A stretch of 64,000 bases of DNA from Ahrensia sp. R2A130. GTDB taxonomy: Bacteria > Pseudomonadota > Alphaproteobacteria > Rhizobiales > Rhizobiaceae. How positions within the stretch are numbered: the first letter of the stretch is position 1; each line of letters starts with the position of its first letter. The stretch lies in NCBI RefSeq assembly GCF_000179775.1, contig NZ_AEEB01000026.1, positions 62,001-126,000 of the forward strand, written 5' to 3'. This document shows positions 28,212 to 64,000 of the stretch, piece by piece. The position numbers and the translations under genes were made by a program. Below the pieces are notes generated by a model. It saw only the letters and a list, made by a program, of their open reading frames with translations, was not told where the DNA came from and did not search any database.

Positions 28212-28697
28212 TTAGGCGGCTTTCTTGCCATATGGCCACACGTTCATCGCGCTTTCGCGTGCAACGGTGAAGCCATCGGAAGCAACGTCGCGGACGGTTT
28301 CAGCAGCGTCACGCACGTAGTTGACGTTTGCGGAAGTGTTGTCGCGAACATAGTCGGACTGGATGCGGACGGCTTCAGAAACCGATTTGGCGTTTGCCAG
28401 TTTTTCGACGGTTGTCAGTGCGCGGTTGACGTTGTTGTGGGTCAGTTCTGCAACGGAACCCAGCATGGAGACGTAACCGGAAGCCATACGCTTCAAGGAG
28501 CCTTCGAGTGTGGTGTTCAGTTTTTCGGAACCTTCATACAGGTCATCAGCACGCTCTTTAGCGGTTGCAGCGGAGCGACGAACGAACTCACGAGTGCCTT
28601 CGGCAACTTTCGTCGTGGCGCGGGTAGCGGCCGTGGTCACGTCTTCAGCTTTGATGGTGTCGTCGGTTTTGATGGTTTTTGCGGTCTTGTTGGTCAT
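28212..28697 (-). CDS. Phasin family protein
   Basis: Granule-surface protein of 161 residues expected to coat polyhydroxyalkanoate inclusions. It is almost wholly helical: an N-terminal Thr/Lys-rich stretch, then amphipathic helices with TREFVRRSAATAKERADDLYEG near residue 45 and a C-terminal phasin core ending NVWPYGKKAA. I chose the ATG at 28697, which has AAGGA about nine bases upstream; an ATG six bases earlier is too close to that site. The gene has its own terminator and a possible PhaR site upstream. A second phasin-like gene is 2 kb away. Confidence 0.85.
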   Translation of the reverse strand: MTNKTAKTIKTDDTIKAEDVTTAATRATTKVAEGTREFVRRSAATAKERADDLYEGSEKLNTTLEGSLKRMASGYVSMLGSVAELTHNNVNRALTTVEKLANAKSVSEAVRIQSDYVRDNTSANVNYVRDAAETVRDVASDGFTVARESAMNVWPYGKKAA

Positions 28698-29073
28698 TGT
28701 CATGTTTCCTTGGTTCAAGCGGTTCTGCGGTAGGCTCACCCTCAATTGGCATGAGCGTCGCGGTGACAAACCCTATCTAGGCCGATTTTTGTGCGTTGCA
28801 ACAAAATAATACATCTTACGTAAGCGTAAGTCGTGCAATTTTGATTAAGTCATTGAATTTTAGTGATAAGAAATTTTCAGATTTTTCATTTTATCGTGTT
28901 GCAGTGCGATTTAGGTGGCCTCAAAGCACCCTACTGATATGGGCGATTGTTCCTTTTCGCTTCCCTGCACGCCCGCCATGCGCCACACCAAGCGGTATAA
29001 CTAAGAACCAAACGGATTGCGGAGCGTTTCCCGTTTCACCGTGGAAAGTATGTAGAAAGCACCCAGCCCGAAG
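28698..29073. promoter_or_regulatory. AT-rich divergent promoter region with a PhaR-like site
   Basis: This 375-base gap separates the phasin gene from the DUF445 gene. It holds TGCGTTGCA (28792-28800), which fits the TGC-N3-GCA core bound by PhaR upstream of phasin genes, TATTAT on the minus strand (28806-28811) as a possible -10 for the phasin gene next to it, and a CTTACG/CGTAAG inverted repeat (28815-28830). No convincing -35 was found. The rest is AT-rich with nothing identifiable. Confidence 0.45.
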
Positions 29074-30429: not shown

Positions 30430-30906
30430 ATGGCAGACGATAAGAGCAATCCAGCTGGCCCCTTCTTCGACGCGTTCCGCAATTTCGGCACCAATCTGCG
30501 CCTGCCCACGGTGACGGTCGACGACATGATGGCCCATCACCGCGCCAACATTGCCGCGATGGAAAAGGCTGCCCGCAACACCACTGAAGGCACGAAAGCC
30601 GTGATGGCCGAACAGCGCAAGGCGCTGGAAGCGACGCTGGCTGACATCACCAAGATGGTGGAAACCGCCCGCGAAGGTGGCATGAACCGCGAAACGGCGC
30701 GTGAGCTGCTGGCTGAACAGGTGGCCTTCACCCAGCGCAGCTTCGAGCGCACGCTGGAAACCGCAGGTGCCGTAGGCTCCGCCATGCGAGACACCACGTC
30801 CGACAACATGGCAGTGCTGCGCGAGCGCGTTCAACAGGGCATCGAGGAAATGAAAACCACGATGGACCGCAATGACGGCGACGAGCCGCCGGTCAAAGAG
30901 AGCTGA
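30430..30906 (+). CDS. Phasin-like family protein
   Basis: A 158-residue, highly charged, almost fully helical protein. Its start (PAGPFFDAFRNFG then LPTVTVDDMMAHHRANIAAME) matches the phasin-type family often annotated near PHA genes, where the segment VDDMMAHHRANIAA is characteristic. GGGAG lies nine bases before the ATG. The last 75 residues, from NRETARELLAEQ, are duplicated almost identically at 53970-54194 together with the downstream non-coding DNA. It follows a DUF445 gene and lies 1.7 kb from a classical phasin, suggesting a role at storage granules; direct evidence is lacking. Confidence 0.8.
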   Translation: MADDKSNPAGPFFDAFRNFGTNLRLPTVTVDDMMAHHRANIAAMEKAARNTTEGTKAVMAEQRKALEATLADITKMVETAREGGMNRETARELLAEQVAFTQRSFERTLETAGAVGSAMRDTTSDNMAVLRERVQQGIEEMKTTMDRNDGDEPPVKES

Positions 30907-31561: not shown

Positions 31562-32704
31562 TTATGCGGCTTGGTTGCGGTATTGCAAACGCCGCTGTTT
31601 AAACGTGTCTCGTTTGATCCTTTCGCGTTCGAGTAAGATGGTCTGGCCACGTCTGAAGTAGACGTCGGCAGGCGTCAGGTTCCGCAGGCTCTTGTGGTAG
31701 CGGTGGTGATTGTAATGCTCGACGAAGCGCTCGATGCTGGCTTTGAAATCACCGGGCAGAAAGGTGTTCTCCAGCAGGATCCGGTTCTTCAGGGTCTAGT
31801 GCCACCATGCTGGAAGCATGTCTCCGACATGGTCGATCTTGCCCTGCGTTTGTGGATGATACGGAGCGCCACGAACGTGATCCATGTTCTGCGATCCCAG
31901 CCAATCTGCGAGTTCACTAGAGACGTAACTGGAACAGTTGTCGGACAGCAGGCGTGGCTTGTGACGAACAGCACCTTGATCGCAACCGGAAGTCTGTAGA
32001 GCCAGCTCCAGCGTGTCGGTCACATCGCTGGTCTTCATGGTGGTGCACAGCTTCCAAGCCACCACGTAGCGTGAGAAGCATGCCCTCGGGCTTGACCCGG
32101 GGGTCGTCGAGGAGGGTCGATAGATAGTACCAGCCCCAACCGACGATCCCCGGATCAAGTCCGAGGACAAGCCTTGATGGTGGTGAAGTCCGTCTGCCAC
32201 ATCTGGTTAATAGCCGTGGTTTTGTCTCCCAAAACATAGGGGAACTCATCGGCTGCCTTGATAACGACGAAGGCCGGACTGGTGATGAGATCGTGCGCCT
32301 TCAACAATCGATAGACGCTGGCTTCGGATATCGAGCGCGCAGGAACGCCACTGGTCCAAGTGACCAGCGCGAGGGTAGCGCTGGGTGTCTGTGAACCGAA
32401 CGGCCAATTCGCGTGGCGACAGTTCTGGTTCGTCCAGTGCCATATCGACGATCCGCTTCCTAACATCATCGGGAATGCGGTTCCAGGCGCGCAAAGGCTT
32501 GGGAGAACGGTCCTCCAGAGCCTCAGCCCCACCGGTCAGGTACTTGTCGTACCAGCGATAGAACGTGGTGCGGGGAATACCCAACCTGTCGATGGTCTGC
32601 TTTGTCGGCAGATGTGACTTTTCCACCAATCTGATGATCTCAAGCTTCTCGGATGCGCGATATCTCATTCGATCATCGGCCTTGTGCTCGAACCGGCGGC
32701 GCAC
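31562..32704 (-). pseudogene. Degenerate IS3-type transposase, frameshifted and interrupted by REP-like sequence
   Basis: Read on the minus strand the region encodes, in pieces, one transposase: the helix-turn-helix start (RYRASEKLEIIRLVEKSHLP, IPRTTFYRWYDKYL), then after a frameshift SEASVYRLLKAHDLITSP, then GWGWYYLSTLLDD, then the rve core with RPRLLSDN-like PRLLSDNCSSYVSSELA and GAPYHPQTQGKI, and finally the C-terminal YNHHRYHKSLRNLTPADVYF. At least three frame changes, one nonsense codon (TAG just before TLKNRILLEN) and two REP-like patches break it, so it cannot make a working protein. The stop is at 31562-31564. Element ends were not identified. Confidence 0.88.
32084..32168. repeat. 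Pair of inverted REP-like motifs inside the transposase remnant
   Basis: CCTCGGGCTTGACCCGGGGG starts at 32084 and GATCCCCGGATCAAGTCCGA at 32145 is its near-inverse. They flank about 40 bases that still encode transposase residues GWGWYYLSTLLDD. Motifs of this kind are scattered in many alphaproteobacterial intergenic regions. Confidence 0.7.
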
Positions 32705-56222: not shown

Positions 56223-56714
56223 TTACCCCCGCCGAACTCGCCAAGCCTCAGCCAATTCCGCACCCATAGCGCTGGCCGTCTCTAGTCCAGCGACAGTTCC
56301 CGCCTGATCGTCTTCGCTTTTGTTTTGGTTCAGCTTCCAGCTTCCTTCTAGGCGCTCCACCGTGATCTCTAGGCCGACGATGCCGCGCATGCGGGCTTCT
56401 ATGTAGCGGTCAGGCGCGTCGTTGACGGCCCATGGTTTTTCGCGCGGCGCTTCCTTTTCGTCGGTCATTTCGTTGAGGTGGCGCAGCAGCCATGCGGGGT
56501 CTTCGGTGTGGCGAAGGTGGCCGTGGGCGTGGATGGCGATGTAGGTCCAGGTGGGCACGATTTTGCCGTGCTCGGCCTTCGATGGATAGAACGAAGGCGA
56601 AATGTATTCCTGCGGGCCTTGGAAGATCACGACAGCCTCCGGCGCGTCTTCACCACCGAGAGCGGGGGTGCTTTGCCAATGGGGGTTGGCGCGGGCGATG
56701 TGGTTTTCCAGCAC
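56223..56714 (-). pseudogene. Truncated PaiB-like FMN-binding protein, C-terminal part
   Basis: Encodes the last 160 residues of a PaiB-type protein and is about 85-90% identical to the intact copy at 58934-59590 (QGPQEYISPSFYPSKAEHGK, HTEDPAWLLRHLNEMTDEKE, then DDQAGTVAGLE). The N-terminal 50 residues, which carry part of the flavin pocket, are missing; the frame just opens at an internal codon. It lacks a five-residue stretch present in the other copy. It lies in direct orientation to that copy and frames the DJ-1/GlxA cassette. Confidence 0.85.
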
Positions 56715-58933: not shown

Positions 58934-59590
58934 TCACCCCCGACGCACCCTCCAAGCTTCAGCCAGTTCCGCACCCATAGCGCTCGCCTCTTCCAACCCT
59001 GCGACCGTTCCCGCCTGATCGTCTTCGCTCTTGTTCTGATTCAGCTTCCAACTTCCTTCAAGACGCTCCACCGCAATCGATAGGCCGACGATGCCGCGCA
59101 TGCGGGCTTCTATGTAGCGGTCGGGGGCGTCGTTTACGGCCCACGGTTTTTCGCGCGGCGCTTCCTTTTCGTCGGTCATTTCGTTGAGGTGGCGCAGTAG
59201 CCATTCAGGGTCTTCGGTGTGGCGCAGGGTGCCGTGGGCGTGGATGGCGATATAGGTCCAGGTGGGCACGACTTTGCCGTGCTCGGCCTTCGATGGGTAG
59301 AACGATGGCGAGATATATTCCTGCGGCCCTTGAAAGATCACGACCGCTTCCGGCGCGTCTTCAGCATCCAGAGCGGCATCTATAGAAGTGGCGCTTTGCC
59401 AATGGGGGTTGGCGCGGGCGATGTGGGTTTCCAGCACGATGCCGGTTGCCGTTTCCTTAGCCACGCATGGAACGTGGGTGACCTGAAGGCCCCCTGCGCC
59501 GTGGCTTACTATTGCGCCGAAGCGGATGTCCCGCACGGCAGCTAGTAAAATCTCGGTACGGTCTTCCTGAAAATGCGCGGGTCTATACAT
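58934..59590 (-). CDS. paiB: PaiB-like FMN-binding negative transcriptional regulator family protein
   Basis: A 218-residue protein with the split-barrel FMN-binding fold of the PaiB family. It begins MYRPAHFQEDRTEILLAAVR, has the flavin-region THVPCVAKE and HIARANPHW, and the family signature VIFQGPQEYISPSFYPSK. PaiB was described in Bacillus as a transcriptional repressor of protease and sporulation genes, but most homologues are uncharacterised and may be flavoenzymes. It is 100 bases from the convergent GlxA gene. A truncated copy lies at 56223-56714. Confidence 0.9.
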   Translation of the reverse strand: MYRPAHFQEDRTEILLAAVRDIRFGAIVSHGAGGLQVTHVPCVAKETATGIVLETHIARANPHWQSATSIDAALDAEDAPEAVVIFQGPQEYISPSFYPSKAEHGKVVPTWTYIAIHAHGTLRHTEDPEWLLRHLNEMTDEKEAPREKPWAVNDAPDRYIEARMRGIVGLSIAVERLEGSWKLNQNKSEDDQAGTVAGLEEASAMGAELAEAWRVRRG

Positions 59591-59703: not shown

Positions 59704-60513
59704 TCAGTCCAGTTCGCCGACCTTGGGGAAGGCAAAGCCTTTGACGCCGGTGCGGTCGAAGGGTTTCCACCCGCCTTCCGGCTGGGCCAGACGGTCTGCA
59801 ACGGCATAGACGGCTGCAGGGTGGTGGCCGAGGCCGCAATGGCTGGAGCGCACGCGGATATTTTCGTGAATATCGGACGGTTCTTCCATGCAGTTCTGCC
59901 AGTGGCAGATTCCGTCGGAGCGAGAGAAGATCGCCGTGCTTGGCACCGGCGCAGGAGCAGCAATCGTGCCGCCCATATGGTTATCGCGGTCATCGACCTT
60001 ATGGCCGGAAGCGTATTGGTAAAGCTTCCATGCGTTCGTTGCGCGGGGATCGCCTTTGAAGGGGGAACCGAGTGTGATGACCTGACGGACGAGGTCCGGC
60101 ATCATCTTGGCCATCTGGCGGGCATAAATGCCGCCCAGTGACCAACCAACGATGGAAACCTTGCGATTGTGTTCTTCGGCCAAGCGTTCGAGCTGGGATT
60201 TCAAGCCATCTTCGACACCGGGAAGTGGACCGAAATTGCGGCCCTGTTCCCAACCGGAAACGGAGTAGCCTTTGGCGGACAGAAAGCCGCGAAGCGACAG
60301 AGTGGAACGGTCCGACGTCACCAGACCCGGCAGCACGAGCACGGGCTGGCCATCGCCGCGCGGGGTGGCCGCCAGCAGGCCGGGAACAGCGGCGGCAAAG
60401 CCTGCCAGTTCCGGGATCGCCCGCAGTTCCATCAGCAGCAATTTGCGGCTTGGCGCTTTCGGATGGTCGGAAGGTTCGAGAACTTGGTCGATAGTTTGTG
60501 CAGCTGCACTCAT
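59704..60513 (-). CDS. Alpha/beta hydrolase family protein
   Basis: Hydrolase of 269 residues with the nucleophile elbow GWSLGG (Ser125), an oxyanion-region LPGLVTSDRS near residue 62, and a likely catalytic histidine in SSHCGLGHHPAAVY near residue 230. The pattern is of esterase or lipase type, and the strand order is typical. It is preceded by GGAGCG at a good distance and, further upstream, by a perfect 18-base palindrome overlapping its presumed promoter. It lies in the same direction as the wax ester synthase gene upstream of it but is separated by 275 bases, so it is probably its own transcript. A role in lipid turnover is inferred from neighbours. Confidence 0.85.
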   Translation of the reverse strand: MSAAAQTIDQVLEPSDHPKAPSRKLLLMELRAIPELAGFAAAVPGLLAATPRGDGQPVLVLPGLVTSDRSTLSLRGFLSAKGYSVSGWEQGRNFGPLPGVEDGLKSQLERLAEEHNRKVSIVGWSLGGIYARQMAKMMPDLVRQVITLGSPFKGDPRATNAWKLYQYASGHKVDDRDNHMGGTIAAPAPVPSTAIFSRSDGICHWQNCMEEPSDIHENIRVRSSHCGLGHHPAAVYAVADRLAQPEGGWKPFDRTGVKGFAFPKVGELD

Positions 60514-60788: not shown

Positions 60789-62246
60789 CTAGGCTGCCTG
60801 TTTAGCGACAGCGTCCTTCAACTCGTCCAGCGAGACCTGCAACAAATCTGCAAGATCAGCGATGTCCGGCATGGCGCGGCGGCCGCCGACAAGGCCGAAA
60901 TCCATCGAATCGCAATAGCTTTGCACCGTGATGTTCAGGCCAACGCCGTGGGTGACGATGGACACAGGATACAGATGCGTCACCTTCGCGCCCGTACAAT
61001 ACATCGGGAAGGGAGGACCCATCGTGTTGGAAATGCACAGGTTCACCGCTTGCGGCACAACATCGGCAAGCTGGGTCTGGCCGTAAAGTTCGACCAATGC
61101 GGACACCAGATGCGGCGCGCCCAACACGGTGTAGTCGGCGGGAATCATCGGTTTGACCGCGTTCACGACTTCTTTCTGGATGCCGGATTGGTCGGCGATG
61201 GCGCGCAGCCGGTCCATCGGATCAGCAATCTGGGTGGCGATGGGAATGTTCATGCCCGCCACCTGATTGTTCATGTCGTCATTGCCGGCTTCGCGGGTGG
61301 AGACGGGAACGAAGGCCACCAGAGGCTTGGTGGGCAGCTTTTTCTTGTCCTTCAGATAGTGGTGCAGCGCGCCGGAACAAATGGCCATCACCACGTCGTT
61401 CAACTTGGTGCCGGTGGCTTTGGCGATGGCTTTCACATCCGTCAGGCGAACGGTGCGGGCAGCATAGGTACGGCCCTTACCCATGGTGACGGAGAACGGC
61501 ACTTTCGGTGCGCCGATGGCGTTGGGGTCCAACTTTGAGGCGAGGTCGGTGATGTCTTTACCGAGATTGCCGGACGCGAGGCGTTCAGCGCCATCCAACA
61601 TCTGGTCCATCATTTTCGGCACGGCTTCCCATGCCTTCAACTGTTGGGTGACGACATTGGCCACCACATCGTGGACACCAAGAATGCCGCGCTCGGTCAG
61701 CGTTGGTTTGCGAGCAGGTTTCACTTCGACGGCGGGCGCAACATCGCGGGGAACCGGTGTGAAGTCGTAGAGCGCCTGCGCGATTAACATGCCTGCGCCA
61801 CCGTCAATAGCTGCGTGGTGAACCTTGGAATACAGACCGGCGCGACGTGTGCCGTCTTCGGCGTCTGCCATGCCTTCAATGACGACGAACTGCCAAAGCG
61901 GCTTTTTACGGTCCAACGGCTTGGCGTGAATTTCAGCAACGAACTCTTCCACCTGCTCCATCGAGCCGGGCTTGTTCAACTTCACGCTGGTGATGTGGTA
62001 ATCGAAATCAAGATCATCGACTTCCACCCAACCCGGGTGGTCCAGTTCGAATACGGTGCGGGCAAGCTTGCGGTTAAAGATCGGGACCAGATGCACGCGG
62101 CCTTCAAAGAAGGTGCGGAAATGGTCGTAGAAGGAACCCTTAAAGCCTTCCGGCAGTTCGTATAATGTGAGGCCGGCTACATGCATGGGCGTGCGATCCG
62201 TCTCCAGATAGAGGAAGGAGGCGTCGATACCGCTGAGCTGTTGCAT
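60789..62246 (-). CDS. Wax ester synthase/diacylglycerol O-acyltransferase (WS/DGAT)
   Basis: Makes wax esters or triacylglycerol from acyl-CoA and a fatty alcohol or diacylglycerol. The protein has 485 residues. The active-site motif is HHAAIDGGAG (His143-His144-x3-Asp148-Gly), with the family start LSGIDASFLYLET, the PLW segment (RKKPLWQFVV) and the conserved CISNTMGPP region near residue 400. It is a membrane-associated enzyme located at the surface of lipid bodies. The divergent acyl-CoA synthetase next door would supply the acyl-CoA. Its presence suggests neutral lipid storage in addition to PHA. Confidence 0.93.
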   Translation of the reverse strand: MQQLSGIDASFLYLETDRTPMHVAGLTLYELPEGFKGSFYDHFRTFFEGRVHLVPIFNRKLARTVFELDHPGWVEVDDLDFDYHITSVKLNKPGSMEQVEEFVAEIHAKPLDRKKPLWQFVVIEGMADAEDGTRRAGLYSKVHHAAIDGGAGMLIAQALYDFTPVPRDVAPAVEVKPARKPTLTERGILGVHDVVANVVTQQLKAWEAVPKMMDQMLDGAERLASGNLGKDITDLASKLDPNAIGAPKVPFSVTMGKGRTYAARTVRLTDVKAIAKATGTKLNDVVMAICSGALHHYLKDKKKLPTKPLVAFVPVSTREAGNDDMNNQVAGMNIPIATQIADPMDRLRAIADQSGIQKEVVNAVKPMIPADYTVLGAPHLVSALVELYGQTQLADVVPQAVNLCISNTMGPPFPMYCTGAKVTHLYPVSIVTHGVGLNITVQSYCDSMDFGLVGGRRAMPDIADLADLLQVSLDELKDAVAKQAA

Positions 62247-62489
62247 GAGGAAATGTGTCCCGTGGATTTTGAGGCAGCATAATCAAATGCTTGCCTTTAG
62301 CAAAACATGGCCTGCAATACGGTTTGTAACGGGTGCAAAACGCGCATTCGCTTGCATTCCGGCACCCCGCAATGCAGTTTCACACGATTGACGCATACGT
62401 AAGAGGTGCAACGCAAGCACCTGCACTTTGAAAACCGAAAACCAAGACGCCGGGAGCAACCGGACGTCGCATACGGGAGGGCACAAAAT

Positions 62490-64000
62490 ATGGCCAAAGC
62501 CACCACACCAAAGAAGCCGACAGCAGCAAAAAAACCGGCCGCAAAGCCTGCAGCAAAGAAAACCGCAGTTAAGAAGACTGCGGCTGCGAAGCCGGTTTCG
62601 AAGCCTGCGGCAAAGAAGGTTGCAGCTGCTAAACCCGCTGCCAAGAAGGTTGCTCCAAAAGCAGCAGCGAAACCGGCGGCGAAAAGCTGGTTCAAGAATT
62701 ATCCCGCAGGCGTGCCCCACGAGGTGGACCTGTCGCAATACGCTTCGCTGGTCGAGCTGATGGAAGAGAGCTTTTCCAAATACCGCGACGACAACGCCTA
62801 CGTCTTCATGGACAAGTTCCTCACCTATAAGGAGCTGGACGAGCAGTCCGCAGCCTTTGGTGCCTACCTTCAAAGCCTTGGCCTCGTAAAAGGCGACCGC
62901 GTCGCCATCATGCTGCCCAACGTGCTGCAGTACCCAATTGCCTGCTGCGGTATCCTGCGCGCCGGTCTTATCCTGGTGAATGTCAACCCGCTCTACACCG
63001 AGCGCGAGCTTGAACATCAGCTGAAGGATTCAGGCTCCAAGGCCATCGTGATTTTGGAAAACTTCGCATCGGTTCTGGAAAAGGTCGTCGCGAAAACGCC
63101 GGTCAAACACACCATCGTTGCTTCCGTGGGCGACCGTCTCGGCATGCTGAAAGGCGGCATCGTCAACTTCGTGCTGCGCAATGTGAAGAAGCAAATCCCT
63201 GCTTACTCGCTGCCCGGCCACGTGAAATTCAACGATGCTATGAGCGGCGGCGCGGGTAAGAAGCTGACCAAGCACACGCTCGCCAGCGATGACGTTGCGG
63301 TGCTGCAATATACCGGCGGCACCACTGGCCTGTCGAAGGGCGCAACCTTGCTGCACTCCACACTGATCGCAGCCTTGCTGGCATCAGAAGAGTGGATCCG
63401 CCCCGGACTGGAGCGCAAAGGCGGCATCTCCGGTCAGATGACATCCATCTGCGCCTTGCCGCTCTATCACGTGTTCGCCTTCGTCTCCTGCTCACTGCTG
63501 GCGCTGCGGACAGGCGGCATGTGCGTGCTGATCCCCAACCCGCGGGATCTCGACGCCACGATCAAGGAAATGGCAAAGTATCCGTTCCACACGCTGCCTG
63601 CGGTCAACACGCTGTTCAACGGCCTCGCCAATCATCCTGAATTTGCCAAGCTCGACTTCTCGCAGCTTCGCATTTCCAACGGTGGCGGCATGGCTGTTAC
63701 CAAAGCGGTGGCAGAGCGCTGGCTCGACATTACCGGTTGCCCGATTTGCGAAGGCTACGGCTTGACGGAAACGTCCTCCGGCATCACCTGTAACCCGACA
63801 GACACCGACGCCTATACCGGCACCGTGGGTCTGCCCATGCCGGGCGTCGAAGTTCGTATTCTAGGTGACGACGGCAAGGAAGTTGCCACCGGCGAGCGCG
63901 GTGAAATCTGCATTCGCGCGCCGCAGGTCATGCGCGATTACTGGCAGCAGGAAGAGGCAACGAAAGAGTCCTTCACCAAGGACGGTTTCTTCCGTTCCGG
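62490..64000 (+). CDS. Long-chain acyl-CoA synthetase (FadD-like) with a Lys/Ala-rich N-terminal tail, partial
   Basis: Activates fatty acids to acyl-CoA; the gene runs off the window (503 codons seen). GGGAGG stands nine bases before the ATG at 62490. Residues 1-65 are a low-complexity tail with 20 Lys and 25 Ala in short units such as PAAKK and KPAAK, like histone H1 or PHA-granule proteins. From residue 66 (SWFKNYPAGVPHEVD) the usual FadD sequence begins. The AMP-binding motif YTGGTTGLSKGA is near residue 273, and GYGLTETSS follows near residue 425. No stop or frameshift is seen. It is divergent from the wax ester synthase gene; the 243 bases between them hold both promoters. Confidence 0.9.
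   Translation, partial: MAKATTPKKPTAAKKPAAKPAAKKTAVKKTAAAKPVSKPAAKKVAAAKPAAKKVAPKAAAKPAAKSWFKNYPAGVPHEVDLSQYASLVELMEESFSKYRDDNAYVFMDKFLTYKELDEQSAAFGAYLQSLGLVKGDRVAIMLPNVLQYPIACCGILRAGLILVNVNPLYTERELEHQLKDSGSKAIVILENFASVLEKVVAKTPVKHTIVASVGDRLGMLKGGIVNFVLRNVKKQIPAYSLPGHVKFNDAMSGGAGKKLTKHTLASDDVAVLQYTGGTTGLSKGATLLHSTLIAALLASEEWIRPGLERKGGISGQMTSICALPLYHVFAFVSCSLLALRTGGMCVLIPNPRDLDATIKEMAKYPFHTLPAVNTLFNGLANHPEFAKLDFSQLRISNGGGMAVTKAVAERWLDITGCPICEGYGLTETSSGITCNPTDTDAYTGTVGLPMPGVEVRILGDDGKEVATGERGEICIRAPQVMRDYWQQEEATKESFTKDGFFRS

Follow-up and report, generated by a model that had tools for sequence, protein, structure and literature searches.

The right-hand end of the 64,000-nucleotide stretch of Ahrensia sp. 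R2A130 DNA analyzed here (the window) carries fadD (62490-64367, plus strand), which extends past the window end. Its first 65 codons (62490-62684) encode an N-terminal polycationic tail with a net charge of +20 that is modeled as disordered, and the remainder (62685-64000 within the window, with the gene end at 64367 beyond it) encodes a FadD-type acyl-CoA synthetase body. The AMP-binding domain scores 306 bits (cut-off, 29.9) over residues 92 to 485 and the AMP-binding_C domain 70.3 bits (cut-off, 24.5); a Pfam scan at an E value of 0.001 returned just these two domains and no phasin domain. The nearest NCBIfam model is the long-chain acyl-CoA ligase PRK07059, with 859.7 bits against a cut-off of 869, and the protein resembles synthetases of this type in having both the AMP-binding and the C-terminal domain; the next NCBIfam model gave 730.3 bits against a cut-off of 884. 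The protein is 66 to 76% identical to the FadD proteins of ten congeners. Judged by its domains, the enzyme behind the tail is an ordinary, complete FadD-type acyl-CoA synthetase.

Divergent from fadD, on the minus strand, lies a gene for a wax ester synthase/diacylglycerol acyltransferase (WS/DGAT; 60789-62246), which scores 408.9 bits for TIGR02946 (cut-off, 309.95) and thereby bears out the wax ester synthase neighbor proposed in an earlier sequence-only reading of this DNA. It is accompanied on the same strand by a gene for an esterase-like alpha/beta hydrolase (59704-60513), which is syntenic in G003 and G010, two genomes of the same genus. Past the window end, fadD is followed by genes for a MaoC-domain protein (hydratase), a PHA synthase (PhaC), a PHA depolymerase (PhaZ), and a metallo-beta-lactamase-fold protein. 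The top NCBIfam model for PhaC is class II, at 672.8 bits and below the cut-off of 855.4, while the depolymerase scores 290.2 bits for TIGR02240 (PHA_depoly), above the cut-off of 250.6. An acyl-CoA synthetase, an R-specific hydratase, PhaC, and PhaZ make up a route from fatty acids to mcl-PHA. fadD adjoins the phaC gene (class II-like) and the depolymerase gene, which is a hint at an mcl-PHA granule protein rather than a strict definition of one. In the genome, which is 94.88% complete, this PhaC is the sole PhaC_N match and the WS/DGAT is likewise the sole one found. Based on gene content, the divergent WS/DGAT and esterase genes round off a storage locus with fadD, maoC, phaC, and phaZ.

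The genome holds three Phasin_2 matches, of which two are inside the window, and both of these proteins match Phasin_2 when scanned. The first (28212-28769, minus strand) has a 57% identical homologue near the fadD locus of G003; the second (30430-30906, plus strand) has counterparts in G003 and G010 (42% and 36% identity) next to the esterase/WS-DGAT/fadD/phaC block. The two window phasin genes are located ∼30 kb from the esterase/WS-DGAT/fadD block, and they are close to it in G003 and G010. Fragments that look transposase-like by eye (31796-32704) lie beside one of them. Elsewhere in the window, the ORFs at 56223-56714 and 58934-59590 (minus strand) encode closely similar proteins of 163 and 218 aa and look like a local duplication in which one copy is shorter at the N terminus.

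Translation of 62490-62684 gave 20 Lys, 25 Ala, 9 Pro, and no acidic residue (Asp or Glu), confirming the earlier claim that 65 residues with 45 Lys or Ala precede an otherwise normal FadD. The units KPAAK, PAAKK, and AAKP occur five, three, and four times, respectively, and the hydrophobic share is 8 percent. When all 163 window ORFs that reach 100 aa are compared (six frames, overlapping ORFs included), the fadD tail has the highest Lys plus Ala content per 65 residues, i.e., 45; the runner-up, with 25, is the antisense of the same tail stretch and contains no Lys, and the third reaches 23. A ribosome-binding site, GGGAGGG (62475-62481, plus strand), is located 8 nt 5' of the ATG at 62490. 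Counted from the enzyme domain, possible starts in the open frame are a GTG (codon −93) and the ATG at 62490 (codon −65), with no start codon between this ATG and the enzyme domain; the first one past this ATG is a GTG at residue 75, within a YPAGVP stretch. Translation from the upstream GTG would add 28 ordinary residues ahead of the tail. A start downstream of the tail was rejected because no start codon is available between the tail and the enzyme domain, and a start near residue 66 finds no support. The ribosome-binding site and the lack of a start codon between this ATG and the enzyme body argue that tail-less translation is unlikely, and the tail is very probably translated in vivo. In an AlphaFold2 model of FadD, residues 1 to 78 have pLDDT values below 50 and residues 1 to 65 are without secondary structure. 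Because the model derives from an alignment of seven sequences and has a mean pLDDT of 62.8, it was used solely for the disorder of the first residues; it suggests that the tail is probably disordered.

Lys/Ala/Pro tails are known on granule organizers (PhaF and AlgP) and on DNA enzymes. The sequence-only reading held that the fadD tail resembles PhaF-type tails, and this likeness stands: its composition is like that described for PhaF of Pseudomonas putida and AlgP of P. aeruginosa, with Lys, Ala, and Pro in AAKP or KPAA units and a disordered or predictedly disordered chain (PMC5658603, PMC9239181). By the same descriptions, on which the comparison with PhaF and AlgP is based, their tails follow a phasin or helical domain at its C-terminal side, whereas that of FadD is N-terminal on an enzyme; AlgP has 25 perfect KPAA units, as opposed to five KPAAK in FadD; and FadD has AAKP-like repeats as in a PhaF-type phasin (four AAKP and five KPAAK in 65 residues) but at the N terminus. 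Pseudomonas mcl-PHA granules bear PhaC, PhaZ, the acyl-CoA synthetase ACS1, and PhaF, whose eight AAKP-like repeats are responsible for nonspecific DNA binding (PMC5658603). In AlgP, removal of the KPAA domain disturbs the positioning of polyphosphate granules (PMC9239181). A third parallel is MLDS of Rhodococcus jostii, a lipid droplet protein for which DNA binding has been demonstrated and whose lysine-containing end links the neutral-lipid body to DNA (PMC5504291); there the lysine region is C-terminal on a lipid droplet protein, while for the FadD tail such binding is a prediction. In the open-licence PMC literature, we found no description, among the matches listed, of a FadD or AtpD with a Lys/Ala tail. 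The enzyme is ordinary and the class of tail is known; no paper among those listed matches combines the two on FadD.

These parallels suggest a possible tether like that of PhaF, in which the tail would bind DNA and FadD would fasten PHA granules or neutral-lipid bodies, along with itself, to the nucleoid, so that one protein would unite the granule-bound ACS1 with the histone-like tail of PhaF. The gene order fadD-maoC-phaC-phaZ, in which PhaC is class II-like and PhaZ is a PHA depolymerase, the joint presence of PhaC, PhaZ, ACS1, and DNA-binding PhaF on the Pseudomonas granule, the effect of removing the AlgP KPAA domain, and the five KPAAK units of the FadD tail all speak for it. As likened by description and gene context, FadD is similar to granule-bound ACS1 in that its gene is next to those for PhaC (class II-like) and a PHA depolymerase, proteins that are ACS1's partners on the Pseudomonas granule (PMC5658603), and different in having the 65-residue Lys/Ala/Pro tail at its N terminus.

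However, the locus occurs without the tail and the tail without the locus. G003 and G010 have the esterase, WS/DGAT, fadD, phaC, and phaZ genes in identical order and orientation, with phasin genes nearby (G010 also has the maoC gene, which the search did not recover from G003), and their FadD proteins start with MNRFW and MERIW, respectively, without a tail. The tail is therefore dispensable for the PHA and wax genes. Conversely, a search of the 14 other tailed loci at an E value of 1e-3 with PhaC, PhaZ, WS/DGAT, the esterase, MaoC, and three phasins (two from the window and one from G005) gave no homologue in the stretches read, which spanned 16 to 18 kb per locus except in G018 (10 kb) and G056 (4.9 kb); the same search does recover the block in G003 and G010. 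G005 has a PhaC_N match on a different contig from its tailed fadD. A general tie of the tail to WS/DGAT was rejected, since WS/DGAT was found in 3 of 37 genomes (R2A130, i.e., G000, and G003 and G010), two of which have an untailed FadD; a general tie to PHA loci was rejected on the untailed FadD at the G003 and G010 block and the 14 tailed loci without PHA homologues in the stretches read. By these comparisons, the tail does not depend on the PHA-locus setting. We also noted that in G007 (L127, 4005-9704), a Phasin_2 gene adjoins and is divergent from an untailed fadD, with a 1,074-residue protein alongside that looks P450-like by eye. Given the untailed syntenic FadD proteins and the tailed loci lacking PHA, WS/DGAT, and phasin homologues in the stretches read, and the comparable tails on AtpD, ClpA, and TatB described below, we consider the PhaF-like tether rather unlikely. 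A bolder version, in which FadD is its own organizer, the tail connects inclusions of mcl-PHA (or wax/TAG) with the nucleoid or with polyphosphate, the first storage enzyme positions the store, and the tail was gained more than once in the order, strikes us as slightly more doubtful still.

Tails of this class are present on other proteins of R2A130. Two DNA patterns run over the genome led to Lys/Ala-rich termini of four proteins, AtpD (N-terminal, MAKAATPKTPAKAAAKKPAAKK...), ClpA, topoisomerase I (TopA), and TatB (C-terminal), as well as Lys/Ala/Pro-rich stretches in two more ORFs; AtpD and TatB were identified by Pfam, ClpA from its Clp-type AAA domains, and topoisomerase I by eye. The first pattern gave nine matches with none in the control, and the second 25 with 14 in the control, so that many single matches to the latter are due to chance. 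A similarity search of the genome with the tail recovered the fadD tail alone, and the other tails were found through the DNA patterns. The AtpD Lys/Ala/Pro tail (C55, 122174-122641, in R2A130; loci L284-L313) was followed in other genomes: the AtpD N terminus is Lys/Ala-rich in 23 of 27 readable genomes (30 examined), including R2A130 and 11 of 11 congeners examined, and is not so in G034, G092, G252, and G399. The FadD and AtpD tails are alike in composition, N-terminal place, and the start MAKAxTPK; these eight shared residues are of low complexity, and a FadD tail copied from the atpD start is a possible lead. FadD, AtpD, ClpA, TopA, and TatB are otherwise unrelated proteins, and while 11 of 11 congeners have the AtpD tail, only 1 of 10 with a readable orthologue has the FadD tail. 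Such tails appear to be a lineage habit, also on proteins unrelated to storage granules, and the tail alone is no proof of a nucleoid tether; nor do similar tails on AtpD and ClpA prove a shared function.

The same proteins bear on another reading, namely, that the tail is an anionic-membrane anchor keeping FadD at the inner membrane, where uptake would be coupled to fatty acid activation. FadD is a peripheral membrane enzyme and the tailed TatB belongs to a membrane protein family, both of which fit such an anchor. However, hydrophobic residues are few in the tail, the AtpD N terminus lies at the membrane-distal end of F1, and ClpA and TopA are soluble proteins. We therefore regard a membrane anchor as very unlikely.

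Of 41 FadD rows compared, 15 are tailed, that of R2A130 included, with tails of 21 to 196 aa and net charges of +6 to +35; this is not a frequency because the rows were partly chosen for matches reaching into the tail. The N termini of G030 (31 aa, +1) and G015 (14 aa, +3), with few Lys each, were left out of the count. Six tailed proteins are among the best 30 matches from 61 relatives, the query itself having a tail. The tail is absent in 9 of 10 congeners with a readable FadD orthologue, which the sequence-only reading named as evidence against its proposal, but present in the sister lineage: the exception, G005, has a 73-residue tail with 21 Lys on a FadD that is 71% identical to and sister of that of R2A130 (support, 99/90). 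In a distant FadD clade of the same family, the tail is present in eight of eight sampled genomes of genus g49 (102 to 196 aa), in G021 (117 aa), and in G029 (61 aa). Short tails occur in G018 (27 aa) and G056 (21 aa), and G092 has an 80-aa tail on a FadD of only 34% identity on a very long branch. A set of 80 named FadD loci contains no tailed gene (within it, L042 and L043 look like duplicates of G010 and G007, and in L114 only a single residue precedes the match). To see whether the tail spreads outside the order, 12 FadD genes in 11 loci were picked from the matches listed, for long frames or early matches; none is tailed, and one pick (G272) belongs to the same order. A plasmid collection queried with a relative's long tail gave no match, and the ten matches listed for FadD all begin at residue 67. 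On a FadD tree with 63 rows, the tail label needs six changes, gains and losses counted alike, of which starred branches force at least three; among related bacteria, the tail seems to have more than one origin. Purine-rich ribosome sites, e.g., GGGAGG or GAGGAGG, precede most of the tail starts in relatives, which are ATG, GTG, or TTG. In 11 of the 15 tailed fadD genes (L133, L134, L230-L237, and L241), the apparent start is GTG or TTG, and automatic annotation may therefore cut or shift the tail.

In five g49 pairings, which use L231 and L233 twice each, dN/dS was 0.77, 0.31, 0.44, 0.28, and 0.27 for the tail versus 0.07, 0.08, 0.05, 0.03, and 0.11 for the body. In the closest pair, 18 of 120 codons have a changed residue and none of these is at the 21 Lys, for which the chance is 0.023 if changes are random, while Ala is kept at 33 of 48. 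The other four pairings kept Lys at 18/23, 13/27 (L231/L236), 22/39, and 19/23 and Ala at 30/48, 26/57 (L231/L236), 42/76, and 32/51; because Lys is kept about as often as Ala in the less similar pair L231/L236, the preference for Lys is not uniform. Between R2A130 and G005, Lys is kept at 16 of 24 and Ala at 15 of 29, with synonymous changes (dS) saturated. The alignment of low-complexity tails is uncertain throughout. The GC3 of the tail is under the body-codon expectation in all 15 tails, by 0.01 (L132) to 0.23 (L231), a deficit that might stem from weak selection or from slippage of repeats. None of the tails examined has more than a few acidic or hydrophobic residues, and, as aligned here, tail composition is kept while the sequence largely drifts free.

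Part of this pattern would also be expected of a nearly neutral low-complexity expansion, in which Lys/Ala-rich codon repeats lengthen and shorten by slippage at a tolerant N terminus without a selected function. The range in length, the many indels, the weak purifying selection per residue, the low GC3, and the nine untailed congeners point in this direction, and tail dN/dS values of up to 0.77 together with large length differences may fit it too. Against it, acidic and hydrophobic residues are few in all tails, dN/dS stays under 1 wherever dS is defined (five pairings), and the tail is kept throughout the sampled g49 genomes and in both R2A130 and G005, although the bodies of the latter two are just 70 to 71% identical. 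On balance, we hold neutral expansion to be unlikely.

We rather favor, with modest confidence, that the tail serves charge-based retention of FadD at polyanions without sequence specificity. A disordered chain with a charge of +20 would bind polyanions by charge, be it nucleic acid, polyphosphate, or anionic lipid or inclusion surfaces, and FadD held in this way would reach a higher local enzyme concentration with its chemistry unchanged. Because fadD is part of a PHA locus in R2A130, the practical effect there may concern the supply of acyl-CoA near storage granules. The earlier proposal that the tail ties FadD to DNA or lipid bodies is supported in part, by the very probable translation of the tail, its PhaF- and AlgP-like make-up, and the PHA genes beyond the window, and weakened by the untailed FadD proteins of G003 and G010, the 14 tailed loci without PHA homologues in the stretches read, and the tails on unrelated proteins. 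From the genomes compared, the tail is encoded and led by a ribosome site, the tree needs several gains or losses, and the tail persists where present; translation in vivo, polyanion binding, and any benefit are what we infer from these data.

The repeated gain of a tail by an enzyme of lipid use, once beside PHA genes, amounts to a natural experiment, and the tailed FadD of R2A130 and the untailed ones of G003 and G010, in the same locus context, offer a direct comparison of the effect of the tail. Should the tail prove to have no effect, sequences of this kind ought not to be taken for histone-like at first glance. Should it place inclusions within the cell, tails on enzymes would represent a new means of organizing bacterial storage.
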